Below, piece by piece: positions 27,987 through 57,603 of a DNA stretch of 64,000 nt. Source of the stretch: Megalonaias nervosa. Lineage: Eukaryota; Mollusca; Bivalvia; Unionida; Unionidae. The stretch is taken from NCBI GenBank assembly GCA_016617855.1, contig JAECUM010000843.1, forward strand, positions 124,001 to 188,000, written 5' to 3'. The notes beneath the pieces were generated by a model, which did no database searches, was not told the origin of the DNA, and saw only the letters and a program-made list of their open reading frames with translations. The translations under genes and the position numbers were made by a program. Numbering within the stretch: position 1 is the first letter of the stretch; each line of letters begins with the position of its first letter.

Positions 27987-30868
27987 TTATCTATTAGAAA
28001 CACATACATGCTCATGATATCTCTTCTTAAATACTCTAATATTTTCAGCAGATTTTACATGTAGTGGAAGCTTGTTCCACAGAACTGCACCAGAGTATTG
28101 GAAGCTCTTTTTAAATTGCTTTGTTCTTGGTTTTGGTGCTAGAAGGTTTCCATGTGATATTGATCTCAACTGGTATTGTGTTGAAAAAGGCCTGAATAAG
28201 TCCTAAAGATACTCTGGTTCAGTTCCATGTAGACATTTATATAAAAGAACTGCCTTTTGAAAATCTATCCTGTCATATATTGTGAACCATTTGAGTTCTG
28301 TAAATAATGCTTTTGAGGGATGATCAACAGACGCATCTAAAATTATGCGTGCTGCTCGTTTCTGAAGTTTACAAATCCTGTCAAGCTCAGATTTAGCACA
28401 GTTTCCCCAAACATTTGAACAATAATCCATTGTTGGAAGAATATATGACTTGTAATACAGATTGCAAGTTTCCATAGGTAAATATTTCTTGATTCTGCTG
28501 AGTAGGGCAATTTTGGATGACAGTGTTTTACAAAGCTTATCAGTATGGTCATTCCATAATAAACTATTATCTATGGACACACCTACAAACTTTTCATGTT
28601 TGACATTTTCTAACAGATGATTATTTATTGCAAGAGATAGTTCTTGGTTCCCTGACTTGTGTAGCTTTTGTGATGTCCCCAAAATCATACATTTTGTTTT
28701 ACCTTCATTATTTACCATCCTATTTTGTTGTGCCCAGTTTTGGACTCTAATAAGGCCCGAGTTTAATCTCATTTGGATAACTTGGTATCTGAACTAAATG
28801 TATACAAGGTTGCATTGTCTGCAAACAAATCTGTATTTGTGGATTCATTATTTAATGGTAGATCATTGATATAGATAAGGAAGAGGAGAGGGCCTAAAAC
28901 TGAGCCTTCAGGGACACTTGAATGAATAGTGCAAGTTTGAGAGCTAATATTGCCAATGCTTACTTGTTGAGACCTTCGGTTTAGGTATGATCTAAACCAG
29001 TTTAAAGAAGGGTTGTCGAAACTGTAGCAGTTCAACTTTTGCAGCAGAATTTCATGATCAACAAGATCAAAGGCTTTCTTGAAGTCAAGGAAAACAATCC
29101 CAGCCATATGTCCATTATCCATTTCCTTCTGCCAAAGATCAATTAATTTGGTAAGTTCTGTTTGGCATGAATGGTACTTTCTAAATCATGATTGCGCTTC
29201 ATGAAATAGAGAGAATGTTTCAAAAAATTTATAGACCTGAATGGCTACATGCTTTTCAAATAATTTTGACAACACAGGTAGAATTGATATTGGTCTGTAA
29301 TTTCCTGGATCCTCCTTTTCTCCTTCTTAAAGATAGGTGTAACCTTTGCACATTTCAGTGTTTCTGGAAAATTACCACTCATTATACTTAAGTTTATGAT
29401 ATACATTAATGACTTTGTTATTACTCTTGCAGCAATTTTAAGAATTTGTGGACCAATACCATCCAATCCAGAGGATTTATTAATATTCACCTTAATTAGC
29501 ATATCAAAAACATCAGCTTCATTAACATTAGCTATTGAAAAATAATTTATCAACAGGAATTTTAGCTCTTATAAATGATAGAAGAGCATCATGTTAAATT
29601 GGGATGTTAGTCTGGTTCTGAATACTGTTACTGTAGATGTTATGAAGAAATTGTTGAACATTTCCACAATGTCTTGTACAGATGTTGCTATATCCTCATT
29701 GTGCTTAAGTCTAGCGGGAAAACAACTGTTCTTGGGTGGGTTCAGCTCTTTTAGATGCTTCCACAATGACTTGGTACTCTTACTTTCTTCAATAGCCTGT
29801 TTATAGTAGTTCTCTTTTGCCTTATCTATCAGGTGCCTAGCTTTATTCCTCCATTTTCTATAGATTTCATGTCTTTTTTCTTATGGAAATTATCTCTTAG
29901 GTGCCTAGCCTCACTGATCTCTGGGGTAATCCACTTGGGTGTAATTTGGTGTTTAACCCTTTTTTGTTTTAATTTGAGCATGCTTGTCTAAGGCTGCATT
30001 GAACATCCAATACCATTTGTCTAAGGCAGTGTTGACATCAGCTATATTGCAAACTGATTGGAAGGGTTTGCAAACTAAATCATTTAAGAACATTTCCTCA
30101 TCAAATTGTTTTAAGTCCCTGTATTGAATTTCAATGTGTTGACCATTTTTAGATGATTTCGAAAGATGTCTAGTTATACAGACTGGGTAGTGGTCACTCA
30201 GTGCGTACACTGGCACATTAATTTCACTTATGTTTTCAGGTTTATTAGTATAGACATGATCAATGATAGTAGCACTTTTATCTATTACTCTAGTTGGGGT
30301 GTTAATTAATTGAGTAAAGTTATAAGTTTCAAAGTTACTTATCCATGTTAATGGTGGGGTTTTCATGTAGTCAATGTTAAAATCACCTAATATGATAGTT
30401 TCTAAATCTTCCTTTAGTAATCCCTTTTGAATTTGCACCTCAAAATCTATCAATCCGATCAGCTGTGGAACTAGGTGGCCTGTAAACTGAACATAAGAGT
30501 ATTGGTTTTGATTGTGCAAGGGTTACCTCAATCCAGATACTCTCTACCCCAATATTCTCTTGATCAATACGTCTATTATAACTAATGGAACTGTCTACAC
30601 AGAGAAGAATACCCTCACACCCCATGGATTCCCTATCTTTTCTTTCAAAGTTGAACCCCTGTATTTGGAGAGCCAAATCATCAATAGCATCTGAAAGAAA
30701 GGTTTCATATAGACCAAGAATAATGACTGATCTAGTCTGCTGTAATATTAACTTAATTTCATTCAGTTTAGGGAGGATGTGTTGAATATTTAGGTTGATT
30801 ACTTGCAGACTTCTTTTGAGGAGGCCAAAGTCATGACAATTTTGATCAGAGGATTGATTTTCAGACAT
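27987..30868 (-). pseudogene. LINE ORF2: APE endonuclease and reverse transcriptase (broken)
   Basis: The N-terminal part (30868 to about 29953) is an apurinic-type endonuclease: LQVINLNIQ at the start, SVYRPP, then LGDFNID, and LSDHYPV near its end. It is frameshifted around 30450. The RT part (about 29553 to 28203) shows KSSGLDGIGP, then LDFKKAFDLVDHEILL, VPEGSVLGPLLFLIYINDLP and FADNATLY. The usual catalytic FADD is FADN here, and the usual PQGSVLGP is PEGSVLGP, so the polymerase should be inactive. The C-terminal segment (FQYSGAVLWNKLP, 28169-27987) is typical of CR1/L2-group ORF2 ends. Further frame breaks lie near 29553, 29240 and 28200. Confidence 0.9.
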
Positions 30869-30877
30869 GGTGGTATG

Positions 30878-33800
30878 CTATGTATTGTTTTTAGGCTTGA
30901 CCGATTTCTTTACACCTTGATTATTTACATAAACACATGAAGAAGATAACATACAAGATCCATCTGTTGCACTATGACCACAAGGAGTGGATACATGAGA
31001 ATGTTCAATATGAGACTGATTTACATACCTACAAGAAGACATTGATATATTAGACAGTTGAGGAGCCTCAGATGGAGAAGTAACTTGAACAGTATCACAT
31101 AGTTATTTACGTGTTAACAAGTTCCACTTTGTACACAAATCATAGTACCTGAAACCTGTTCATAGAATTATAATTATTACATTGAAAAGTATACACATAT
31201 TCTAATGCATTTTGTTGCTGGATATCAGTTGCACAGGCCTGTAAATCATTGCCTTCTACCTACTGGTATGTGCACAACTTTTGCTTATGTCCTAGTTCAT
31301 TACAAAGATGGCAGTGAATCTGTTTTCCATGCAGACACTGCTGTGTTACATGACCATGCTCTCCACAATACAAGCAGTTTTCTGACTCATGCCTAACCCC
31401 TTTTATAAGTCTTATGTACTGGTCTATATTCTCAAGGAACAAGGCAGTACCTCTGTTGGACAAGTGGATTCGGTCTCGTTGGTATAATTGTTGGTGCACT
31501 CGATTATCTTTGAAGAAGGTCCTGTATTGCGGAACAAAGAGTATTTGGAAATTCTCACACAATGTACTTAAGGTATCATTTAGTGGAGTCATAGGTACAT
31601 CCCTTCTTGGCAGTAGACCTGAGATGATTATTTTACACTCTGTGTTTTTGGACCTGATGGCATACAACAAGCTTTCATAATCATCCTCAATGCCCTTTAA
31701 AGATTGGCCATTACTGTAATTATTGCTACCAATGAAAAGAATTACAGTATGATATAGTGACATATCCATTTCCAATATTTTTTCTGTAATAGTATTAATA
31801 GTTGCACCTCTGTGGGTTTTTACGTCAGTTTTATATAATCCTCTTGTTCTTACTCTTTTGATTATTGATGATCCTATGAGAAGAGATCTATCTTTAATTA
31901 TGTTGCTGATTTTGACAAGTGGGGGCTTCAGATGTACTGCATAGACTTCTTGATTTCCATGACTGAACTGACTGAGAGTTTGGTGACTGCTGTATTTAGT
32001 ATTTGTATTTAATTTAGCTTCATGCTATGGGTAATTGGAGGTTGTCTTTTGAGCAGTTCCTTCTGTACCTGGATTTGATGTTGAGTGAGACACATGATGG
32101 TCAGTGTTTACAGTATGTGCATTAGTTGTTTTTTGGCTCTGCCCATCTGATACCTGAAGAAGAGACTCATCCTGTTTAATTGGTGAGGTTGCATCTGTTT
32201 GTGTGTATATTGATTTTTTTCTAATAGCTGGTTTTGGTATGGTCTGAGTGCCCTGACATGCTCTTGTGTTTTTGGTCCTTTGACATGTCTGTGTATTGTA
32301 TTGTCTGGGTTTCCTGGTACACTTTTTTGTACCTGGTTTATCCATTTGAATGTTGTGTAGACTCTTTGATTTTAATGCAAAGAGAACTTGTTCTAACCTT
32401 TCTACTTGGGCCTGGAGATTACCTATCATTACTGAACACTGCATGGAGGTGCAAGTCTGGTTATGGATTCCATAGAACTCAAAGGAATTTGTTACCCCTA
32501 TCATAAACTGGTGTAGTCCACAGTGATTGCAATCTGGCTTACTTCATGTAAAGCTGTGTTACTGTTGACTAGATTTTGAGATCTGTGGGCTTCAGGGATG
32601 GATGTTGAAGCCCTTGGCTGAGAGGTATGTTACGTGTTTAGGCTCTTACAAAAAGTAAGAAGAAAAGAGTGAAGACAACAAGCTTTGTAAAATTTAACAA
32701 ATAATTTATTTCCCTAAAAAATAAGGTAAAAATGAGAAAAAGAACTTACAGTTTTACGAATCAAATCCAAAATTAATCCAAGAATTAAAAAACAGAAATC
32801 CTATTATTAAAAACTCCTAAATGAATCTGAGTTCGAGTCCCGATGAAATTCAAAATGGAAGGCGATGACGTCTGTTGCAACCTTCAAAGTATTGTTGTAT
32901 CAACAGTTCCTTGTTGAATCACAGAAAATAATATTCCAGTTTTGAATTCTGAATAAATTTCAGTGAATGTCTTTGTCCAAGAATTCTGTATGAGCACTTG
33001 TACATTTCCAGGGAAAAGAATCTCACTAATTCCATAAAATAGAATTTCAACTGACCATTGTCACAACAAAACACCTTTAAGTGTCAAAGGTTTAGAGCCC
33101 GGACTGAACTATCTTCTATCAAGACAACAGTTAAACACCAATTTAAGACTATACACCAATTTAAGATGCAAAACAGATTCCCGTATGAGGGTCACATGGT
33201 CATCCTTCCAGAACAACATAGAAGCTTTTTACATGCCTAACATCACATACTCCCAGTATGGAATTAACTGAAATCAATGGTTCTTACTCTTGGAACGAAT
33301 TAAAAAAAAAAAATTTTAAAAGTTGTTTACCTGATTTCTTAATCAAGGTCAGCAACTAGATAGAGTGGTTCTACTACTGGTTGTTTAACAGTAAAATAAA
33401 AAAAGGTCAGGTCAAACAGAACTGAATTAATTTTCTGGACAATTTCAAATCCAGTAAATAAAGTTACATTACAATAACATGTAATGAATTTTAAAACAAT
33501 TTAAAAATAACAAACAAATAATTAAATTACATATACATAACAGGTAATTAATTTCAAACTAGTGTTATCTTCCATTTGCTGACAGGTGTTGATAAAATAA
33601 TTTACCCATTCTGTACAGCCTGGCTCTTGTACATGAATTTTACCAGTTGTTATGTAGAGAGTTACTGTGGCAGAATCTGTATCTGTGGATTTATAGATCA
33701 GTCCATTATGTGAGTGTCCCTGCTGGAAGTGTAGATTCTCATCCAAGAATTTCTTAATTGTTGGAATCTTTTTCGAGTCAGCTGTGATTGTTATACTCTG

Positions 33801-40908: not shown

Positions 40909-41175
40909 AGCAGCAGGCAGGGTGAACCCTACAACTTTTTCCTGACCTTATTTTACAAAAATAAAGGTTCCTACAGGGGCTGAAAAATAAGGTCAATAAT
41001 GCTAAACCAAACCTTCTAACTTTTATTATTACCATATAGTTTGAAAAAACGGATAATAAATCATTTTAGTTAGTTCATTTTTGTTATTATTTTTGACTTT
41101 TTGTTTTTTATTTTATAGTGCGTTTAGTTTACTCGCGGGTCACTCAATTTTTGTCGTTCACCCTGCCTGCTGCTG
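40908..41175 (+). repeat. Left terminal inverted repeat
   Basis: 268 bp, reverse-complementary to 56413-56681 with scattered mismatches (I judge 85-90% identity by eye). It begins cagcagcaggcagggtgaac and ends gttcaccctgcctgctgctg, so the repeat unit itself has inverted ends of 20 bp. Confidence 0.95.
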
Positions 41176-41208
41176 TAAATTAAACAGCCAGTATAAATAT
41201 TATTAATA

Positions 41209-42376: not shown

Positions 42377-42844
42377 ATGATTGTACATAGTACTCAACGT
42401 GGACCAACCATGGTCAGGGTAATAAATTCACGATTACCAGTATACAAGACAACCTACGGAGATGGACTAGGTGATGTTGTTCAAGGTCTATTTAAAAGGA
42501 TAGCCCCAAAAGCAATACCGATCGCAAAGCAACTGGGAATGAAAGCTATTGATGTTGTTCATGAAAAAGGTATTGGTGCTGTGGGTAATCTCGCTGGTAA
42601 AGCATTTTCAGCGATCAAAGATAGACTAGCACGATTAATACGACGAAAACCTCAACCACCAGTAAAATTACCTAGTACTGAAGTAATGACTCCAAATGTC
42701 AGTAAAAAAATAAATCAGGTTGCTAATCAAAAATTAGCGGAGTTAGCTGATGTACCAATGTCAGAAAAAGAAAAAAATATAACCGCTAGTCAGATAGCAG
42801 GAAGTGGTCTCACTTCCCGAAGTGGTCTTCGTTTTAGACAATAA
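42377..42844 (+). CDS. Basic minor virion protein, adenovirus pX/pVI-like
   Basis: 155 codons if started at ATG 42377; ATG 42410 is an alternative start and gives MVRVINSRLPVYKTTYGDGL. Next comes GDVVQGLFKRI and a long amphipathic, Ala/Lys/Arg-rich helical part, then RLARLIRRKPQPP. Near the C-terminus IAGSG fits the adenain cleavage pattern (M/I/L)-X-G-X-G. Family knowledge: small basic, membrane-active or core precursors cleaved by the viral protease occur at this place in adenoviruses and Polinton-like viruses. The assignment is by pattern and position, not a strong homology. The frame is intact. It sits 14 bp before the major capsid gene. Confidence 0.6.
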   Translation: MIVHSTQRGPTMVRVINSRLPVYKTTYGDGLGDVVQGLFKRIAPKAIPIAKQLGMKAIDVVHEKGIGAVGNLAGKAFSAIKDRLARLIRRKPQPPVKLPSTEVMTPNVSKKINQVANQKLAELADVPMSEKEKNITASQIAGSGLTSRSGLRFRQ

Positions 42845-42858
42845 TAATTATAATAAAG

Positions 42859-44250
42859 ATGTTCAAGCGCATATCTGATCCAGCATTTGACATGGACGCA
42901 CCGGTACTCAAGGATGAGTCTGTGCGTGATTATCAATATTATTCTTATGACGCTCGAATTCCAGATCAGCATGGACGAATTGAACTACAAGTTCAGGATA
43001 CAAGTAGGTATTTCTTACCCGCTGAGGCGCTTACTGAAGTAGAAGGTAAAATTTTTAAAGCGGATAATACTGAATACGATAATAATGTTGCTTTTGGTTT
43101 TGTTAATAATGGTATTATGGCGTTATTTGACAGCGCCACTTATATGATTGATGGTAAAAATATTGAATCAATTCAGAAGGACGTTGATGTTGCTATAACG
43201 ATATTAGGTCTAGCACGATATAGCGACGATTATTCAAGATCAGCTGGTCCATCAATGATGTTTGTAAAGGACACTTCTGATCACCCGGATCATAAAAATG
43301 TAACTACAGGTAACGTAAGAAACGCTTTAGGAACCGCAGAAACTCCTGCAGTAATATCAATGAACGCAAATTTCAACTTAGGATTTGCATCACGTAAAAC
43401 AATGTTGAAAGATAGAATGTTTTCATGTGCAATTCCACTTTCACACATATTTGGATTTTGCAGAAATGTCAGAAAAGTTATTTTTGGAGCCAAACATACG
43501 GTTGTACTTGTATGAGAAGCCACGGACGATGATGCAATATGGCACGTTAGAGGAGCTGATGATCCTGCAACTGTGGCACTTCATGGTAAAGTAGTATTAA
43601 CCAAACTTTCATTGTGGATGCCAGTGATGACTCCAACAATACCTGAAGAAGATCGGTTACTTGCTTTTATGAGTCAAGATGGTAAATCAATGTTGTCATG
43701 GTTAACAATGACCACAGATGCTGTTCAGAGTGCAATTAATGGTTTATTTACATTGCAAATAGCCTCTCAACAGGGAATAGCCGCACCACGACATATATTC
43801 ATTGCGCTTCAGGATAATACACATGTAGGTAATCAAACAAAAAGTTTAATGATATTTGACAAACTTGGTGTTTCTGAGGTTTCGTTAAGAATAAATGGAC
43901 ATCAAGAACCATCCGAGGATATATTACTGAATTTCAATCAAAATCATGTAGCACGTGCATATCATCGATTAATGACGTTCATGGGCCGTGATCAAAATAT
44001 TGATACTGGTTTACAAATATCACAATTGGATTTTACAACCCTATATCCGATTTATTACTTTTCGCTCGAACATTTAGATTTAACCAGACAGTCAGTAGTC
44101 GACATACATTTTCGAGCTCGTGTTAACAGAAATATTGTAGATATTCCTAATTACATAGCAATTGTTGTCACACTCAGCGATAAATCAATGTTACTTGAAG
44201 GTGCTGGTGGACGAATGAGAGTCGTTGATGCTCCAGTAGAAAACATATAA
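42859..44250 (+). pseudogene. Major capsid protein, double jelly-roll (one in-frame TGA)
   Basis: About 463 codons in one frame from ATG 42859, interrupted only by TGA at 43513 (codon 219). The N-terminal half shows ISDPAFDMDAPVL, YFLPAEALTEVEGKIF and ALFDSATYMIDGKNI; the C-terminal half shows FMSQDGKSMLSW and ITTLYPIYYFSLEH-like beta-rich text ending in a jelly-roll strand pattern. I assign it as the Polinton/adintovirus hexon-type capsid protein from length, position beside the protease and the strand pattern of two successive domains. The protein would form trimeric capsomers of an icosahedral virion. TGA would arise from CGA by one change, and CGA is used often for Arg in this element. 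An internal ATG at 43573 is not a true start. Confidence 0.85.
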
Positions 44251-44273: not shown

Positions 44274-44732
44274 ATGTCATATAATCATGTTAGTGTTAGT
44301 CTGACTCTTGGTCAGATTAAAAGGATACAATCAGCATCAAAAAATGACTGTGGATTAAAAATATTGCTAAAGAAAGAGCAGATGAGCGGCTCAAATAAAT
44401 TATCTCTTACAGAACGTCAGCTAAGTCATTTCAATGAAGCCAAAAAATCAAATAAAGGTATAAAACTTAATCTTTCTGCGGGTGCCATTAAAGACATCGT
44501 TAAGACAGGTGGTATATTTCCACTTCTTGCAGCTATACCAGCATTAATAGCCGCTGCAGCCCCAGCTGTTGCAAAAGCAGCTGCATTAGGCGCTGTTGGA
44601 ACCGCTGCTGGAATGGCATTAAAGAAAGCAACCGGACAGGGAATCAAAAAAAAGGGAAGGGGTCTAAGATTGCCAGGGACTCCACATTCGTGGTACGGAA
44701 AAGGCCTAAGATTACCAGGGGCAATTTACTAA
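44274..44732 (+). CDS. Hydrophobic minor virion protein with GLRLPG repeats
   Basis: 152 codons from ATG 44274; an ATG 12 nt upstream is also in frame. The N-terminus has VSLTLGQIKRIQSA and a Ser/Lys-rich middle. A hydrophobic Ala/Ile/Pro-rich segment of about 40 residues (FPLLAAIPALIAAAAPAVAK) follows, then a basic C-terminus with GLRLPG twice. Family knowledge: I have seen this arrangement (a QxKKxQ.A-type start, an Ala-rich hydrophobic centre and a basic tail) beside the capsid and protease genes of animal Polinton-like elements, where a membrane-active minor capsid role is suspected. The function is not proven. The frame is intact, and the 3' end abuts the protease start by 8 nt. Confidence 0.65.
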   Translation: MSYNHVSVSLTLGQIKRIQSASKNDCGLKILLKKEQMSGSNKLSLTERQLSHFNEAKKSNKGIKLNLSAGAIKDIVKTGGIFPLLAAIPALIAAAAPAVAKAAALGAVGTAAGMALKKATGQGIKKKGRGLRLPGTPHSWYGKGLRLPGAIY

Positions 44733-44740
44733 TATCTCCT

Positions 44741-45154
44741 ATGTCCAATTTTGATTTACTAGATGCTGCTAAAAAATTAAAAATAAAAAATTTCAGAGGA
44801 GTTTTTATGCGTGATCAATTACCAAAACAACCAAACAATATTGAAACCGGTATTATTAATCTCGATAAAAACTCTGGTCCAGGCACACATTGGGTTGGAT
44901 ATGCAATTGATCCACGTGGAATTATTTATTTTGATTCATATGGACTAGCTCCACCAAAAGAATTCTTAAAGTATGTTAGCGGCGATCAAAGTACTCCAAT
45001 ATGGTATTCAACGTTACCAACACAAACATTAACTGATCCACCAATATGTGGTCGAGAAGTACTTAACGTACTTGATGCTGTATCAAAATCAACAAAACCA
45101 CCTCACAAAGTTGTGTATGAATATACTACGTTGTCACATTTAAACAGACATTAG
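44741..45154 (+). CDS. Adenain-like cysteine protease (maturation protease)
   Basis: 137 codons from ATG 44741, chosen over the in-frame upstream ATG at 44690 because that one overlaps the previous gene and adds a tail unlike the family. It contains GTHWVGYAID (catalytic His), IIYFDSYGLAPP (catalytic acidic residue) and DPPICGREVL (catalytic Cys), in the order of C5/adenain proteases. A Gln before the Cys (QTLTDPPIC) could serve the oxyanion role. It would cleave capsid precursors at (M/I/L)XGX-G-type sites, one of which is seen in the pX-like protein. The frame is intact. The C-terminus after the Cys is less typical than the usual CGYYCL pattern. Confidence 0.88.
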   Translation: MSNFDLLDAAKKLKIKNFRGVFMRDQLPKQPNNIETGIINLDKNSGPGTHWVGYAIDPRGIIYFDSYGLAPPKEFLKYVSGDQSTPIWYSTLPTQTLTDPPICGREVLNVLDAVSKSTKPPHKVVYEYTTLSHLNRH

Positions 45155-46796: not shown

Positions 46797-48122
46797 TACG
46801 ACTCCGTCAAAAACTACTATGATATCGTTAAGTTCGACCAATCCTGAATTTAGTGTCAATTTTCCAACATCAATTCCTGCAAAGGAAATAGCATTAGCAC
46901 AATTGCGAGTTTATTATAGCTGGCCAAATATTAGATCAAAACCATTTGGTGGACTACAACCAAATAATTCATTAGTATTCGCTAATAAGAATAAGCCTGA
47001 TGGAACTCCTGATTGGCAAGTAGTTGCTATTCCAACGGGCAGTTATCAAATAGAACAGATTAATGATGAGTTCCAACGTAGAATTAAATCTATTACAGGA
47101 AAAGAATCAAAAATAGCAATTACTGTTTACGAACCAACATTATCGGCGGTGATTGAAATAAATTCCCCTGATTTTTCTGTAGATATTTATCAAAGTTCGA
47201 TTAGATCAGTATTAGGATGGCCTGATGTTCCACCAGTTTATCAAGGACCACGAGAACCAACCAAAAACGAATTTCTCATGATGGAAAAAAGATTTATAAA
47301 AATTCCCGATTAGAGAAAAATGTTCCCATGGACCGTCAATAAATTTTTTATTAATAACGCTGAAAGTATTCCTGATCTGAAAGAAATTTACACAGAGGGA
47401 CCTCCAGAATGGCTTTTTAGTAAAATACCTATCACTGCTGTAAATAAAGTGATGAATGATGAATTTAATTATTTTTTCAATATTATTAAAAATCATATTA
47501 CTAACTAATACAACATTACAGCAACGACACAAAAGAAATTATCCTTGAAGGAATTCGACACTTAAATCTAATACTGTATGATTTTAATTATCTTAAACAT
47601 ATTCTAACTAGAAATGTATATTATTATCTTGAATCAACGATTGTCCCTGATGATGCTAAAAAAACAATAGTAAATAATCTTTTACGTGAAGTAAAAATTC
47701 CTAATTTTATTAATATCGATGAATATTTTCCCGGAATAATTGAATCATGGAGAAAAATAACCCCATCATCAACCATTCTTAAATATAATAATGATCCACA
47801 TGGTGGAGGCCGCCATATCTCACCTGATATTGTTAATATAACATCAACGATCGCGGTCAATCTAGTATGTGACATAATTGATGACAGCTATCAAGTAGAT
47901 CTTTCAAAGTCTAACCAGGCCCAACAGGGGTATATATTCTATTCATTTAGCCCTCAAGTACCACCCGGGTGGTTAATTGTATCTGAGCCAATTAATCCAA
48001 TTTATCTACGTGTACATAATCCATTATTGTCAAGAATAAATTTCAAACTTACTGACCAGACAGGATACATTTTGGATCTAAGACAAGAATCACTTAATAT
48101 TAATTTGTATATACGCTCGTAG
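46759..48122 (+). pseudogene. Penton-like minor capsid protein (two stops and a frameshift)
   Basis: About 455 codons from ATG 46759 to TAG 48120, broken by TAG 47311, TAA 47506 and a frameshift near 47530. The N-terminal part shows TSIPAKEIALAQLRVYYSWP, IPTGSYQIEQIND and RSVLGWPDVPP. The C-terminal part is a jelly-roll-like domain: HGGGRHISPDIVNITS, then YSFSPQVPPGWLI and KLTDQTGYILDLRQESLNIN. Family knowledge: both blocks occur in animal Polinton/adintovirus proteins regarded as the penton-like minor capsid protein; whether as one chain here is inferred from the shared strand, spacing and the second copy at 56.7 kb. The last 200 codons have no ATG, which hides this domain from simple gene finding. 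Confidence 0.72.
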
Positions 48123-49937: not shown

Positions 49938-50558
49938 TTAGATATATTCAAATATTATCGGCTGATCATATTTTATTGAAAATGTAGATTTTTGTATATG
50001 ATCAGCTACATGTTTTATTGATTGTGGATGTATGCTAAAATGTTTTGCAGCCGCATACATTGATGGGAAAGTTATTTCTTGGTCTGTTTCTACATTTATG
50101 GATATAATAGCTCTCTTTTTAAATACTTTTCATTTTCCAGTATTTCCAAGTGCAGAATTCTGACTTTGTGTAATAGATTGCAGGTTAGATAGATTATTAT
50201 TCTGGGAATCTCCATCAATGTGATCAATTATGAGTCCATTTCTAACTACTCCACGAAAACATTCGAATATGAATACATGTGATAAGTATTTTTTTCCCCT
50301 AGCAACAGTAAATATAAAATAACCTTTATTATTAAGACTACCGACTGGTTTTTTCAATCTGCAGTGTCTGATTTAACCATCTCGGGATGCTTCATAATTT
50401 GTATATACTGGTTGTTTAACAAATTCGTGTTTATTACGAAATGCTTCTTTTCTTAATTCTCTTATAAAGTTTTTGTCGATATCATCATCGTGGGTCTGAT
50501 TTGTTTGATTCATTATATATAAATTACATTTGTTTAAATCATTATTTGTCTGATTCAT
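49938..50558 (-). pseudogene. HNH endonuclease with C-terminal helix-turn-helix (two in-frame stops)
   Basis: One minus-strand frame of about 206 codons from ATG 50558, broken by TAA at 50373 and TGA at 50130. The core shows HVFIFECFRGVVRNGLIIDH and DGDSQNNNLSNLQSITQSQN, the phage-type HNH fold (H...EC..G......IDHIDGD..NN...NL). After the TGA the same frame continues with a module reading FPSMYAAAKHFSIHPQSIKH, typical of the NUMOD/IENR helix-turn-helix of homing endonucleases. It could be a free-standing homing-type nuclease parasitising the virus or a viral recombination nuclease. Both stops need only one C-to-T change from CAA or CGA. Confidence 0.8.
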
Positions 50559-50572
50559 TTTATATAATAACA

Positions 50573-50902
50573 TTATTTGTCTAAATCATTGTTTCGAAAT
50601 CTGGTCAGATAATCTTCTACGGTTTGTATAGGAGATTTACCTGACGATGTATTATTTTTTTTGTCATAATATCGTTTTAATTCCCTGTATTTTTTCTGCC
50701 ACATTTTAAACACAATTGAGTTTTTCCTCTGACTCCAACACCACATTGCACACATGGTATTGGTCCTGTACTTCCATTTTTGATACTTTGCGCATGATTT
50801 CCACAGTATTTGTTCACGCACGATTTATTACAAGGAGAAGTATGTCCAATTTTAAGCCAAGCACATTTGTTCTTTGTTTCAAGCGTTATATATATATACT
50901 AA
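50573..50902 (-). pseudogene. Cys-rich zinc-binding protein (start missing, probable frameshift)
   Basis: A frame open from about 50902 to TAA 50677 carries KCAWLKIGHTSPCNKSCVNK, YCGNHAQSIKNG, PCVQCGVGVRGKTQLCLKCG: several CxxC or CxxxC pairs plus His, which fits two zinc sites. No ATG is present in this frame. After 50690 a different frame, ending at 50573 (SPIQTVEDYLTRFRNNDLDK), looks like its natural C-terminus, so a frameshift is likely. I recall similar Cys-rich proteins in animal Polinton-like elements but know no function. It is divergent from the polymerase gene, whose start at 50933 is only about 30 bp away. Confidence 0.6.
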
Positions 50903-50932
50903 AATTTTAATTTAAATATTTGTCTTAATTAT

Positions 50933-53900
50933 ATGAACGAATTATCGGCAACTGAACCTAAAAGAGCTAGATTTGATCTTGAGAGACTATCAGAATATAA
51001 ATTTAGTACTTTGATGCAAGATCTGGCATTAACGGATGAGGATATAACCGAACGTGTCCGTGAAGCCAAGAATGAATTTCGTAATAATGGTGCTGCTCAT
51101 GTATGGTCAACATTCAGAATCGGAAATGTTACTAATATAATGAATGACAAACGAGGAAAAGCAATTATTACTCACCTTGATGATCAAAAATATTTTATTT
51201 TAATAAAATTTATTGTAAATACAGAAGAAAATACTTGGATTATTCGTGACAAGCGTGATCCAGTACGCATACAGTCAGGAAATAATATTGTTCTTTTGAG
51301 TAATAAATCTAAACCCGGAATACTAACCGGTGTTGACAAATTATATTATGAACGTGCATATCCAGTTACTGCGGTTGTATATGCAATATATCCGCTGAAT
51401 AATAAACCTGACGTCAATAATCTTAAGCCGATGAGACTGTCAGAGTCAAGAATAAACTGTGTAGCTGAACGAGTTACAGAACATTTCATAAACGCGATAC
51501 GTGGTAATGGTTTAACAGATTTACGACGTAAAAAAATAAATACATGGGCAGAATCAGTTAAAGATACTGGAGCATCTATTAAAGATGTTGCTGATCTAGA
51601 AAAGAAATTAAGATTTCCAATAACAGTGAAGACGCTGACAGGAGAGATTTTATATAAACCAAAATACATACAAAATGGAGCTCCTATAGATATTATTGAT
51701 CATAATTCGCATGCATGGACCTCAGCAGTAACAATATTTCCACGAGATAGAGCGGTTAAATTTTATGATGGATATATATTTGATTTTATCAAAAATATCA
51801 GTAAAAGTGACCCTGTATCCGTTTGGTTATTTCAAAGTTCAGAATATGATTATTACGATCAATTTGTACGGCCTAATGGTGATATTTACCGTACAGAATC
51901 TCTTAATGTAGAAATGGAACATCTTGCACTGAAATATACTTCAGACGATGTCAAAGTTAGACAGTTATTAAATAATTGTTTTACAGTTCCATCTGTAGCG
52001 GCTCATTTCGCTCAGGAGAAAAATTTATGGAAACCAACACGATCGGAATTTCTTGAAGATATCCAGAAAAGCTGCGTAGAATATGGACACGGAGGATTGT
52101 GGAATACTAAATATAAGTATAATGACGTTATATCCGTTGATATGGTAGCGTGTTATCCTGGAAGTTTTCTTGGATACGGAGAATGTTCTGAATACTTTAA
52201 GAGATTCGGACATCTATCACACAAGATGACCAGGGTTGCGATAAACGGACATTTACCAGAATTTGACTTAACCGGATTTGCTCATGTAGAATCATTTGAG
52301 TTTGCAGAAAATCTCCATCCGATTACCTAAGTTTGGTTTGGAAGACATTTTTCAGAAAAATGTTGGGTTCCAATAGTACTATTGCGATATATGCTTGATG
52401 TTGGAATTTTAATATCTTTACAGGTGAGTGAGGCAATTATATCGTATCAGTCACAGAAGCAAGTTTGGTTACCAGAACCGGATAGATTTAATATCAATGA
52501 TGCCAGGAAAGAATTTCCTGATCTTAATGAAGATGACATTATTAAAATTACTAATAATATACGTAAATGCAGGGACGAGCACGATGAAAAACTTGCAAAA
52601 GATCTTGGTAGAGAGATAATTGGTAAATTTACTCAAGGAGGAGCATATGATCATAAAAGACACTGTACAAGATTGATTATGGACGATGCTGAACTCGATT
52701 TTATAATCGCTGATACAACGGAAAAAAAACACATTTATAAATCGGAGTAATGCTTATTTGTCAGACGGAACCAAACTAGGTACAATTGTGAGTTATCTTG
52801 ATGGTGACTCACCGCAATTTACTCATTTAAGATCATCTATGTTGGCATATGTTTCTATAAATCTAATGTCTATGATAAATAGATTTCCTTGTGATGCTGT
52901 CAGAGTAGCAACGGATTCGTTTTATATAAATAAAAAATATACAGATTTGTTAAAACCGTTACTTGGTAATGGTGAATGGGGATCATGGAGAATAAAACAA
53001 GAAAATATACTTAGTTATTCTGAATCTGCCGACGTTGAAATTAAGGAAATATATTACAAAAATAATAATCAAGTATCAAAGTCATTATCACCATCTGTAT
53101 ATGATCCTGTGGCTAGACATAAAACTGTTTATCTTAACGGATGCGGTGGTTCAGGTAAAACAACGCGTGTGATTAAATTATTATGAATAATAATTCAGAT
53201 ATAATTGTTTTGACACCGAAACATAAACTCGCCAGGGAGATAAAAGAGCGAGGAGTAAAATCATGTACATATCATAGTTTCTTCAGATAATGTGGAGACA
53301 CATGGACTCCTGAGCGAATGGGTGAGAAATATATACCTAAATATATTATATGGGACGAGATATGCACGGTGTCGTTAGATTATTATGAAGAAATAAATGA
53401 TGACCATAGAACTATTGATGAACCGCTAAGGAGTTTAAAAGATTAATCAGACTACAGCCGGATAAAATACAATGTGAAATAATGCGAGGAGTAATTCCAG
53501 AGACTTCTATGAATGATTTTCTACATTTATGGAATCCCGCTGATTTAATAGTTGCAAGTAGAAAGATAGTTCGTGATGAACTACAGGATAAATTATTTCT
53601 GTTACATAAAGAAAAGTTTTCAGATCTACCTGTACCTTTGTGTTATCGCCCAGCAGATACTCGACGACAGAATATTGATGTTGAAATTCCTGGTGGTGGA
53701 ATACAGAATCTTGTCTTGAATGATATTATTTTAGTCGATATTAATAATGTTGAGAATGCGCTGAGTATGAATAAATCACCGTGGACGTTAGGATACGCTA
53801 TAACTATTCACTCGTCACAGGGGTTAACTATTTCTGATACAAATATCTGGATTATAGATGATCGGATCAAATGGTCAAATTTAGTCTATCTCACAGTTTC

Positions 53901-54314
53901 TCGAGTTAGAAGAATATCTCAACTACATAGGGTTATTATGAATTTTACAGAAAATAATAATCAAACTGTTAATAATGACGTAATAAGAAAAGAACTATCT
54001 GGTTATAAACAATGTGACAAAAAACAAATCGTGACTTTGATATTGAGACTGAATTTATTATAACACTAAAACAGCGACAGAATAATCATTGTGCAAGCTG
54101 TAACTGTAATATGTTATGGCAATATTCGAATAATAATCCAAGACAATTTACCGTAGACAGAATTAATAGTGATCTTGGTCATACACGTGATAATGTGATG
54201 CTGACCTGTCTTGAATGCAATCGACGTAGAGGTTCTGGTTATGTAATTGTATGTGGTGGTAATTGTGTGTCTTTAGGAATTACCTGTAATTGTTCACATA
54301 CAAATCCACGTTGA
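50933..54314 (+). pseudogene. PolB DNA polymerase-SF1 helicase-HNH nuclease fusion (multiply broken)
   Basis: One gene of roughly 1,100 codons over four frame segments. The N-terminal part (50933-52330) runs from a charged start to polymerase motif A, SVDMVACYPGS. After TAA 52328 the frame continues to 52750. Following a frameshift, 52758-53186 has SYLDGDSPQFTHLRSSMLAY and motif C-like VRVATDSFYI, then Walker A NGCGGSGKTTR. After a frameshift at 53183, CTYHSFFR and Walker B-like YIIWDEICTV follow, with a TAA at 53287. The segment that should hold SF1 motif III appears deleted near 53370. After another shift (about 53430), HSSQGLTI and YLTVSRVRR are helicase motifs V and VI. A last shift near 54020 leads to CASCN, VDRINSDLGHTRDN and CLECNRRRG, a zinc HNH nuclease. 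It would replicate the provirus. Confidence 0.82.
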
Positions 54315-55211
54315 GGGGCTGTAGAATCTAATCTATAGATTGGAGGTCTACCTGTGGATCTAACTACACTAGAAATTGTATGTGTAGTCACATTCCAGAT
54401 AGGATCAGTTGCTCTTTTTTTACCACCTTCAAGTTCGCCAGGTTCATATAAATATCTTACAGTTACATTACCTAATACTGGTTGAGGTTGTTGTCTGTCA
54501 TCGCTACGGGGTATATATTTTTTTGTAATCGCATTAGAAGGTTTCATGGAAGTTGAACGAGTAATTTCGTTATTTAACGCAACTATCACACTTGGTAACC
54601 TTGCAACCCATTCACGAGATCTCTCACCGGACTTAAAGTCAGTAGATATTTCCTTTGCGTATTGGTATCCAAATAACCGCTCGGCAAGTGTTCGATTAAA
54701 TCGTTCAACAATTGCCTGATCACGATGAATTTCAGTATGTCCTCGTCTGCTTTTAACGTCTTCATCAACGATAATACTGCACCAAGAAATTCTTTGCCAG
54801 GATCAACCTGTAATAATTGTGGCCATCGCAAAGGTCCTCGCTGATAAATTCGTTCAAACGCAGATGCAACTTCAGATGCTGTCTTTGTTGATAATGGTTC
54901 CGCTTCTTTATATCTACTTGCAACATCAACGACAGTTAATGCGTATTTGTATGTGCGTGATTGACGTTTACCAATTTTAATGGCATCGTGTGGTAAAAAT
55001 AAAATATCTGCTTGATGAACTTCATTAGGGACGCTGACATCAAAATGTGCATATTGAATTTTTTAGGTGGTGGTAGATAAATTTGCCATATTGCCTGTCG
55101 TGCTAACCACGCTGCAGCAACAGAACGTGAAACTTTTGCTGCTTCAGATAATTTAGTAATCGCTGATCTACCTCTCCAATATCCTCTTGGGCTATAATAA
55201 ATGGATTCCAT
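54239..55211 (-). pseudogene. Polinton integrase, retroviral rve/DDE type (two frameshifts)
   Basis: Three frame segments on the minus strand. From ATG 55211: IYYSPRGYWRGRSAITKLSE and ARQAIWQIYLPPP, the typical Polinton integrase start. After a shift near 55060: HQADILFLPHD, YALTVVDVASRYKEAEPL (first catalytic Asp) and LLQVDPGKEF (second Asp). After a second shift near 54775: HRDQAIVERFNRTL (catalytic Glu), REWVARLP, then the C-terminal part with PGELEGGKKRATDPIW and GFVCEQLQVIP. All three D-D-E residues survive, split over two frames. It would insert the viral DNA into the host genome. It ends tail-to-tail with the polymerase fusion gene, whose 3' end overlaps it. Confidence 0.92.
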
Positions 55212-55227
55212 TATAATATTTATATAA

Positions 55228-55728
55228 TTAATTACCAGCCCCTAACATTATTTTACTTTTCATGGCAGATTTTACTAGAAAACTAGCTAATTTATCTCTG
55301 ACAGATTTATTAGGTATAGAATTTAATGCATGAATCAATTTTACATCTGCGAGATGCCTTTGTTGTAAATCTTTACTTTTATACGCAACGTCATGAACAT
55401 GACAAGCTTGATCAATCTTATTTATTGGATACTCTCCTGATCTTGGTTGATCTTGATCATCAAGTCGGATATCAAGTCGAGTTCCAGGACCACAATAATT
55501 ATATCCAGGAAGATGTTTCTCACCGGGGTATTTAGCCCATGGAGTTCCTGGTAATTTTCCTAATAAAGCGGCAATATCTCCACCTGTCTTTGTTTTGACA
55601 AATTTGTATTTCTTCGTGCCACATTTTACACATTTGCCCGTCAGAGCACGTCGTTTATTCTTCGTTGTTATTGTAGTTAATTCAGCAGTAGGTGTAGTCG
55701 CTCTACACCGAACACAATATAGATCCAT
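55228..55728 (-). CDS. Zinc ribbon plus parvovirus-type phospholipase A2 protein
   Basis: 166 codons from ATG 55728, preferred over upstream codons because MDLYCVRC begins the zinc ribbon (CVRC ... CVKCG, residues about 4-42) and because the opposite gene starts 12 bp away. The C-terminal part holds the PLA2 signature: PGYNYCGPGT (Ca2+-binding loop) and IDQACHVHDVAYKS (catalytic His-Asp), followed by RHLADVKLIHAL. Family knowledge: this PLA2 type occurs in parvovirus VP1, where it opens endosomal membranes, and in some adintoviruses. The frame is intact with all key residues. Penetration of host membranes is the likely role. Confidence 0.9.
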   Translation of the reverse strand: MDLYCVRCRATTPTAELTTITTKNKRRALTGKCVKCGTKKYKFVKTKTGGDIAALLGKLPGTPWAKYPGEKHLPGYNYCGPGTRLDIRLDDQDQPRSGEYPINKIDQACHVHDVAYKSKDLQQRHLADVKLIHALNSIPNKSVRDKLASFLVKSAMKSKIMLGAGN

Positions 55729-55740
55729 ATTATTTATTAT
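55729..55740. promoter_or_regulatory. 12-bp divergent intergenic region (shared promoter)
   Basis: Only attatttattat separates the start codons of the PLA2 gene and the packaging ATPase gene. Promoter elements for either gene must therefore lie here or inside the opposite coding sequence. The TATT motifs are TATA-like, but no initiator is provable. Confidence 0.5.
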
Positions 55741-56409
55741 ATGGATATAATTGACTTTTCGGCGACACGAAAACAGGAGCCAGTAAAGCATCACCCAGCA
55801 TTACCAGATTCGATAAGGATGATTATAATAGGTCCATCTGGATCGGGTAAAACACAACTATTACTAAATTTAATAATGCGATGGTTAAAATGGAGTAAAC
55901 TGTATTTAGTAGCACCATCTGTAGATGATCAACACTGTTACGAAGTACTTAAAGATTTTAATGAAAAAGCGAAATTGCTGAATGAAGACGGTGATGATGT
56001 TGTTGACTTTATCACCGATATTGATGAGGCTCCATCTGTAGATGACCTAGATGGATTTATTAGTAATTTAGTGGTGTACGATGACGTTATGTTGGATAAG
56101 CAGACGAATCCAGCTAGAATATTTTCTCGAGGTAGACACAAGAATACAGATGTTATATACGTCACTCAGCGTTACACACAAATACCTAAAGTGATCAGAG
56201 ACAACTGCAATATTTTGGTTGTGTTTAATGGAGTAGATAATTATACTTTACAGAATATTTACTATACTTGGTGTTCAGGAGATATAGATATGATTAAATT
56301 TAAAAACTTTTTTGCTCAAGCACAAGCTGTTCCGTTTGGTTTTATTACAATAAATCTACATGATCCAAGATCCAGATATCGTATAGATCTAGATAAAATC
56401 TTTGGTTAA
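55741..56409 (+). CDS. FtsK/HerA-type genome-packaging ATPase (A32-like)
   Basis: 222 codons, complete and unbroken. Walker A IIIGPSGSGKTQ lies near residue 30, a Walker B-like LVVYDDVML near residue 117, and the following IYVTQRYTQIPKVIRDNCN contains the sensor Gln region. This is the A32-like packaging ATPase of Polintons, virophages and large DNA viruses, which pumps DNA into the preformed capsid. It starts 12 bp from the divergent PLA2 gene and ends 4 bp before the right inverted repeat, so it is the last gene of the element. It is the best preserved core gene here. Confidence 0.95.
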   Translation: MDIIDFSATRKQEPVKHHPALPDSIRMIIIGPSGSGKTQLLLNLIMRWLKWSKLYLVAPSVDDQHCYEVLKDFNEKAKLLNEDGDDVVDFITDIDEAPSVDDLDGFISNLVVYDDVMLDKQTNPARIFSRGRHKNTDVIYVTQRYTQIPKVIRDNCNILVVFNGVDNYTLQNIYYTWCSGDIDMIKFKNFFAQAQAVPFGFITINLHDPRSRYRIDLDKIFG

Positions 56410-56412
56410 TTA

Positions 56413-56681
56413 CAGCAGCAGGCAGGGTGGCCGACAAAAATTGAGTGACCCGCGAGTAAACTAAACGCATTATAACATAAAAAACAAAGATTCAAAAATA
56501 AAATAACAAAAATGAGCTAACCCAAACGATTTATTATTCGTTTTTCAAACTATACGGTAATAATAAAAGTTAGGAGGTTCGGTTTAGCGTTATTGACATT
56601 ATTTTTCAGCCCCTGTAGGAACCTTTATTTTATGAAAAACTTGCTCGAAACCAATTTGTAAGGTTCACCCTGCCTGCTGCT
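56413..56681 (-). repeat. Right terminal inverted repeat
   Basis: 269 bp, inverted relative to the left repeat. The inner end is cagcagcaggcagggtgg and the outer end is gttcaccctgcctgctgct. Shared internal blocks include attgagtgacccgcgagtaa and cagcccctgtaggaaccttt. A few bases beyond the inner end also mirror the left side (gtaa.ttaa). Confidence 0.95.
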
Positions 56682-57603
56682 CAAAAATAGAATTGCTATA
56701 GGAAATAAAATATTTCCCGATATAGCAGATGATTTGCGTTATTCCCCCAGACCAGTAGAAAAGAAATTAAATATAGATTTTATTAAATCATTCAGAAATA
56801 TAATTGTGCCTGAGTATATATTAACACGCAATAATATACTAAATCTGTTTACGAGCCTAACACAATATTACGACAAAGATATAAAACAGTAAATAATTGA
56901 AAATATTAATGATCTAACGCATGTTCTCTTGGACCTGAAAGACGTCAACGAAGTTATATTTGCAAATATAAAAATCTACCATGAATTAGAACTGTTATTT
57001 GAAAAACATTATAGAATATCATTTAGTGAACAGAGTGATAACGTACTTTTGCCTGAACTTGAATTCGATAAAGGGAATCCAATCGGCTAAATAGTTAATG
57101 ATCATTTTCCAAGGGTTCTCGAATCATGGAAAAGATTAAATACACCGCCAGGTATACCCAGACACAACAACGATTCCTACGGTGGAGGTCGTCGTATCTC
57201 ACCTGGTATTGTAAATATCATATCAACGATCGCAGTCAATCTTGTATGTGATGTAATATGTGATGTAATAGATGGCAGTTATCAAGTAGATCTTGAAAAA
57301 TCTAACCAAGCTCAACAAGGATACATCTTATATTCATTTACCCCTCAAGTCCCACCAGGATATTTAATTACGGCAGGACCAATTAATGTTGTTTATTTGC
57401 GATGTCATAATCCGCTATTTTCTCACCCATGCGACAGAGAAATCTAGCTGTTTTGCTAACCTTACTTTTCTTATCTCAGTCTGGTTATCTCAGTCCGGTT
57501 GTCTCGGTCTAGTTGTCCACGCGCTAGGGACTACTTTTAAAAAATAAACCTTTGTTGTCTTCTGCTATGCCTGACGTAGTTGTTCTAAAATCAAACAACA
57601 GCG

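Follow-up and report, generated by a model that had tools for sequence, protein, structure and literature searches.

The question raised by this locus is whether a run of broken reading frames in the genome of the unionid bivalve Megalonaias nervosa is the remnant of a single gene in which a B-family DNA polymerase (PolB), an SF1 helicase and a zinc HNH nuclease were joined. The window analyzed comprises 64,000 nucleotides of contig JAECUM010000843.1 (positions 124,001 to 188,000, forward strand), from an assembly of 2.19 Gb in 54,709 contigs. It contains a decayed virus-like mobile element of the Polinton-like (Tlr-type) kind, inside which lies the remnant of a fused polymerase-helicase-HNH gene. 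With a probability of about 0.83, this remnant represents a defunct copy of an abundant Polinton-like element's replication gene, which encodes a single chain of the kind called Tlr1-like helicase or pPolB-S1H fusion (a protein-primed PolB, pPolB, joined to an SF1 helicase, S1H). The chain runs from an N-terminal domain through an OTU-like protease, a palm without exonuclease and a Pif1/RecD2-like SF1 helicase to a zinc HNH-like domain. The original prediction, made from the letters of the window, suggested that the architecture may be little described in a virion-forming element. It has in fact been reported (PMC11071308; PMC12721341) and is kept in the relatives described below; only its setting is less expected.

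The sequence signatures on which the prediction was built were all located in the window. The motif A Asp codon lies at 52139-52141 and that of motif C (RVATDS) at 52914-52916. The Walker A Lys codon (53157-53159) is found 81 codons past the motif C Asp and in the same frame, while helicase motifs V and VI fall within 53422-54063 and the nuclease pattern CxxC..VDR..GH..N..CxxCN within 54018-54314. A tblastn search with an uninterrupted copy of the gene, P0001, recovered the window copy as five stretches (50903-52726, 52722-53180, 53177-53440, 53431-54024 and 54018-54311). It is further broken by a stop codon in frame near 52.33 kb and by the loss of about 40 codons near 53.38 kb, helicase motif III among them. 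Pfam detected no polymerase, helicase or HNH in the broken pieces.

Better-preserved copies, which the prediction had proposed to seek by translated search, were found in the same genome. The piece from motif C to Walker A gave at least 150 matches (the best 150 of 15,425 candidates), and among the matches listed the frame reaches at least 1000 aa in 8 and at least 700 aa in 32, with a median of 492. Sixteen copies were fetched for frame length, a choice that favors intact ones. One of them, L009, has a single uninterrupted stop-to-stop frame of 1189 aa with its first Met at residue 11. Because 200 mononucleotide shuffles of the same sequence gave no frame above 169 aa, the L009 frame is more than chance, and it led us to reject the idea that a misreading had merged separate HNH and helicase genes. 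The fusion gene is under purifying selection: among the 16 long-frame copies, the ratio of nonsynonymous to synonymous substitutions (dN/dS; Nei-Gojobori, pooled over pairs that are not independent) was 0.30 for the N-terminal part (78 pairs) and 0.24, 0.15 and 0.19 for the OTU-like domain, palm and helicase, respectively (120 pairs each).

The same architecture is conserved outside this locus. A search that scored the 7,993 candidates with the most words in common with the query returned 40 proteins of similar length at E <= 0.01, with 36–64% identity. Twenty-seven of these, 42–68% identical to P0001, were aligned with it to give 28 rows, leaving out 12 proteins shorter than 1000 aa as well as P0027. 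Palm, helicase and HNH occur within one predicted protein in 26 of the 28 rows. The catalytic Asp413 of motif A, Lys575 of motif B (assigned by eye) and Asp671 of motif C are invariant, and the first Asp of motif C is replaced by Ala669 in every row. Cys186 and His267 of the OTU-like domain are likewise present in all 28 rows and His270 in 27, and the N-terminal ~390 residues as a whole are conserved. Helicase motif II is found in 27 rows, the exception being P0035, a protein from the sea slug Elysia crispata that lacks part of the helicase. A search with the alignment profile gave 11 proteins, of which 7 were known from before; neither this search nor the first yielded a named Tlr1 or transpoviron protein. 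No relative turned up when viral contigs were scanned with two pieces of the window, with the complete protein or with the alignment. Two of the relatives, P0026 and P0043, share the position of an insert of about 100 residues, which lies between helicase motifs Ia and II.

These data bear directly on the possibility that a canonical, exonuclease-bearing PolB stood beside separate helicase and HNH genes and that the fusion is an artefact of a decayed locus. The five stretches of the window copy and the frame breaks before HNH in seven of the 16 fetched copies are what such an artefact might produce. However, the L009 frame and the relatives refute separate palm and helicase genes, and the exonuclease carboxylates that a canonical PolB should carry are absent. 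We give this explanation hardly any chance of being right. Relatives with the three parts in separate genes, named beforehand as what would speak against a fusion, were not found among proteins of at least 0.55 of the query length, the reach of the search. The prediction is borne out in that PolB-type palm, SF1 helicase and HNH-like end form a single chain, and that the element encoding it also has a capsid gene. The polymerase is not, though, a canonical Polinton PolB extended by a helicase. His270 and the motif A Asp are 143 residues apart, and residues 273-390 contain no invariant or nearly invariant Asp or Glu; with no exonuclease carboxylates conserved, the exonuclease domain is lost or reduced, and canonical Polinton PolB identity was rejected for want of those residues.

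Recognition of the domains by profile and by fold was uneven. Pfam returned helicase-type matches for the whole protein and HNH only at E 0.26, and a PHROG endonuclease VII family matched the C-terminus of P0001 at 2.3e-10, so the profile evidence that the prediction had asked for was obtained for helicase and nuclease. The polymerase part had no match in profile or PDB sequence searches and was recognized by fold search alone. Structure matches of the full-length model, whose palm was of poor quality, show the helicase. Residues 135-735 were modelled separately, and the predicted structures together identify both palm and helicase folds. The VIA structure alignments begin at phi29 residue 54, and a remnant of the exonuclease fold may be left. 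The structure matches singled out no exonuclease, terminal-protein or HNH fold, which is no argument against their presence.

Several observations weigh against a Tlr1-like replication protein. No sequence-profile library recognizes the polymerase part, and the match of the OTU fold is weak (Foldseek E 0.86-1.1 to OTU/PRO-DUB structures). No terminal protein was matched to the N-terminal domain, whose first 140 residues were not searched alone. The placement with Tlr1 and transpoviron proteins is suggested by shared sequence features rather than by a common tree. In addition, the full 1189 residues are covered in only one of the 16 fetched copies and one of the 150 frames listed. The longest frames reach the HNH end in 5 of the 16 copies, stop before it at residues 1060-1131 in 7, and end earlier in 4. 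In four copies (L011, L012, L017 and L023) the long frames break off within residues 1106-1131, where a run of Asn codons precedes HNH closely or directly adjoins the break. The run itself was read in L012; it might mark a hotspot of slippage or an error in the assembly.

For the HNH-like end, the rival view is that a selfish homing endonuclease inserted itself at the 3' end of the gene and stands outside the replication machine. We put this a little short of even odds. Endonuclease domains in such proteins have been read as the outcome of invasions (PMC11071308), the domain is under weaker constraint than the others (dN/dS 0.45, 15 pairs), and it is the only part lost in the seven long frames that break early. 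On the other hand, its pattern residues are kept in 27 of 28 rows (P0004 ends before HNH) across proteins as diverged as those aligned here, which is long for a useless domain. Furthermore, Arg occupies the place of the first His in all 27 rows having that column, making cleavage doubtful. A homing-type origin and a dispensable role are the likelier reading. The self-sufficient replisome with its own nuclease that the prediction envisaged is an inference, given this Arg and the weaker constraint on the domain.

If the Tlr1-like reading is correct, the protein might work as follows, by analogy with described enzymes. The linear element would be copied from its terminal repeats with a protein primer, which the OTU-like protease might free by cleavage, and the palm would extend from it. 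The SF1 helicase would separate the strands in front of the palm, the exonuclease having been lost; a compensatory relation between exonuclease and helicase has been proposed (PMC11071308). The HNH would be an old, dispensable addition, either a homing-type nuclease or a DNA-binding remnant.

Features of the element are collected in Table 1. It is about 15.8 kb long and bounded by inverted repeats. In five further copies, at the distance predicted from the fusion gene, similar repeats were found in nine of ten end stretches, one of the nine being partial. Because no canonical exonuclease-bearing pPolB was found, we call the element Polinton-like or Tlr-type.

Table 1. Features of the element in the window (positions of the 64,000-nucleotide stretch).
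Feature	Position	Strand	Basis
Fused polymerase-helicase-HNH gene remnant, five stretches in three frames	50903..54314	+	tblastn of P0001, 61-95% identity
OTU-like cysteine protease domain (P0001 residues 141-272; Cys186, His267/His270)	51323..51718	+	residue conservation; weak Foldseek matches
Exonuclease-less protein-primed-type PolB palm, motifs A, B and C	52070..53048	+	
SF1 helicase, limits approximate, without motif III in the window copy	53090..53940	+	
C-terminal zinc HNH-like domain	54018..54314	+	PHROG endonuclease VII family 2.3e-10 in P0001; pattern in 27/28 rows
Left terminal inverted repeat	40909..41178	.	arms 75-92% complementary to 56410-56681
Right terminal inverted repeat	56410..56681	.	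complementarity to left arm; similar repeats in other copies
Major capsid protein gene, one in-frame stop	42838..44250	+	Pfam DJR-like_dom PF21738, E 1.1e-4 and 1.9e-6 on two pieces
Possible adenovirus-type cysteine protease	44504..45154	+	Pfam Peptidase_C5, E 0.032 only, below cut-off
Short zinc-ribbon-like open reading frame (ORF), divergent from fusion gene	50677..50898	-	Pfam DZR, E 0.069 only
Free-standing second HNH_3 endonuclease ORF beside fusion gene	50130..50372	-	Pfam 2.7e-12
rve integrase gene, broken	54239..55062	-	Pfam rve 1.2e-7, 32.3 bits against cut-off 32.6
DUF5679 and phospholipase A2-like ORF	55228..55800	-	Pfam 1.6e-10 and 3.1e-12 (PLA2-like PF08398)
A32-type packaging ATPase, open frame	55723..56409	+	Pfam Pox_A32 9.5e-13

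One of the two capsid gene pieces scores below the Pfam cut-off. The window ATPase has 49 homologues. The best match, at 91%, lies on a short contig, and at least two belong to the freshwater mussel Sinanodonta woodiana, one with 77% identity over 37% of the query and the other with 56% over 59%. Inverted copies of a 15-base motif flank each terminal repeat on the outer and inner side. Target-site duplications, of 5-6 bp in Polintons, were not seen by eye in four copies (the window, C13344, C362 and C31797), whose ends are decayed and whose outer boundary is uncertain. Beyond the right repeat, a fragment at 57091-57447 (+) aligns with the element ORF at 47505-48122 over 110 columns with 64% identity, so another copy, or a piece of one, adjoins. 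Left of the element, frames at 28203-32543 (-) resemble by eye a retroelement without long terminal repeats, with stretches like a reverse transcriptase and an endonuclease. Scanning the window for tRNAs and, at gathering scores, with Rfam gave no hit.

Gene content also speaks to a further alternative, that the fusion is a captured host or bacterial protein carried as cargo and unrelated to replication of the element. Nothing beyond the missing Pfam polymerase match favors it. The neighbors of the gene are constant across the 16 fetched loci, with the zinc-ribbon ORF in 16, the HNH_3 ORF in 15 (the exception is L009, whose stretch ends too early) and the integrase in 14 (all except L012 and L018). 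Moreover, a Pfam scan of 20 element pieces matched no canonical PolB or other polymerase, although Pfam would miss a second one of the same type, and the frame lists show no other long frame between the terminal repeats. We judge the cargo explanation very improbable.

What the locus may mean depends on its animal setting, the part worth following. We lean slightly towards the view that a molluscan Polinton-type lineage swapped its exonuclease-bearing PolB for a Tlr1-type single chain and amplified with it, reaching at least 150 copies in a single genome. If so, polymerase-helicase fusions reach beyond protist polinton-like viruses (PLVs) and transpovirons. Animal Polintons "without a detectable polymerase" may then hide a Tlr1-type chain, since Pfam finds helicase-type matches but no polymerase and standard annotation would score such elements as polymerase-less. 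Should elements of this type prove common in molluscs, the exchange of exonuclease-bearing PolB for PolB-helicase would be open to study in animals, with many copies and readable selection. The literature matches listed (titles and abstract openings, with subscription papers mostly outside) include no report of the fusion protein in an animal genome. An association of PLV-like elements with insect viruses is on record (PMC12220804), so animals are not an entirely new setting for elements of the PLV type.

With canonical Polinton/Maverick elements and adintoviruses, this element shares a DJR capsid, an A32 ATPase, an rve integrase, terminal inverted repeats and a length of about 15.8 kb. To our knowledge, no helicase is carried by canonical Polinton or adintovirus PolB. 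The PLA2-like gene also has a parallel, as some Polintons encode lipases (PMC4642659). However, canonical Polinton/Maverick PolB keeps its exonuclease (PMC11071308), whereas here an exonuclease-less palm is fused to S1H. Mavirus pPolB has the vOTU-palm order suggested here and has lost most of its exonuclease, but its helicase is a separate SF3 gene (PMC11071308) rather than a fused SF1. In OmPLV of the dinoflagellate Oxyrrhis marina, an SF1 helicase and a protein-primed PolB again form one chain; there the helicase comes first, the exonuclease is kept and the excerpted text, which also mentions the Tlr1 type, refers to no terminal HNH (PMC12721341). Cryptophyte PLVs encode SF1 - GIY-YIG and HNH-helicase fusions (PMC12220804).

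The closest counterpart is the Tlr1-like helicase of Tetrahymena Tlr1, TvV-S1, other PLVs and transpovirons (PMC11071308, a 2024 preprint), with which the protein was compared by description. Common to both are an exonuclease-less, protein-primed-type palm lacking the first Asp of motif C, an SF1 helicase C-terminal to it in a single chain, and an HNH (or GIY-YIG) end. Tlr1-like helicases have a vOTU domain before the palm; its candidate counterpart here keeps the Cys and His in all rows, but its fold match is weak. The published description also includes a terminal-protein-like middle domain. Tlr1, too, pairs the fusion with rve integrase and capsid genes. The difference is one of setting: the examples described come from PLVs of protists, from an algal virus and from transpovirons, whereas here the chain occurs in an animal genome, in at least 150 copies, and also in Elysia.
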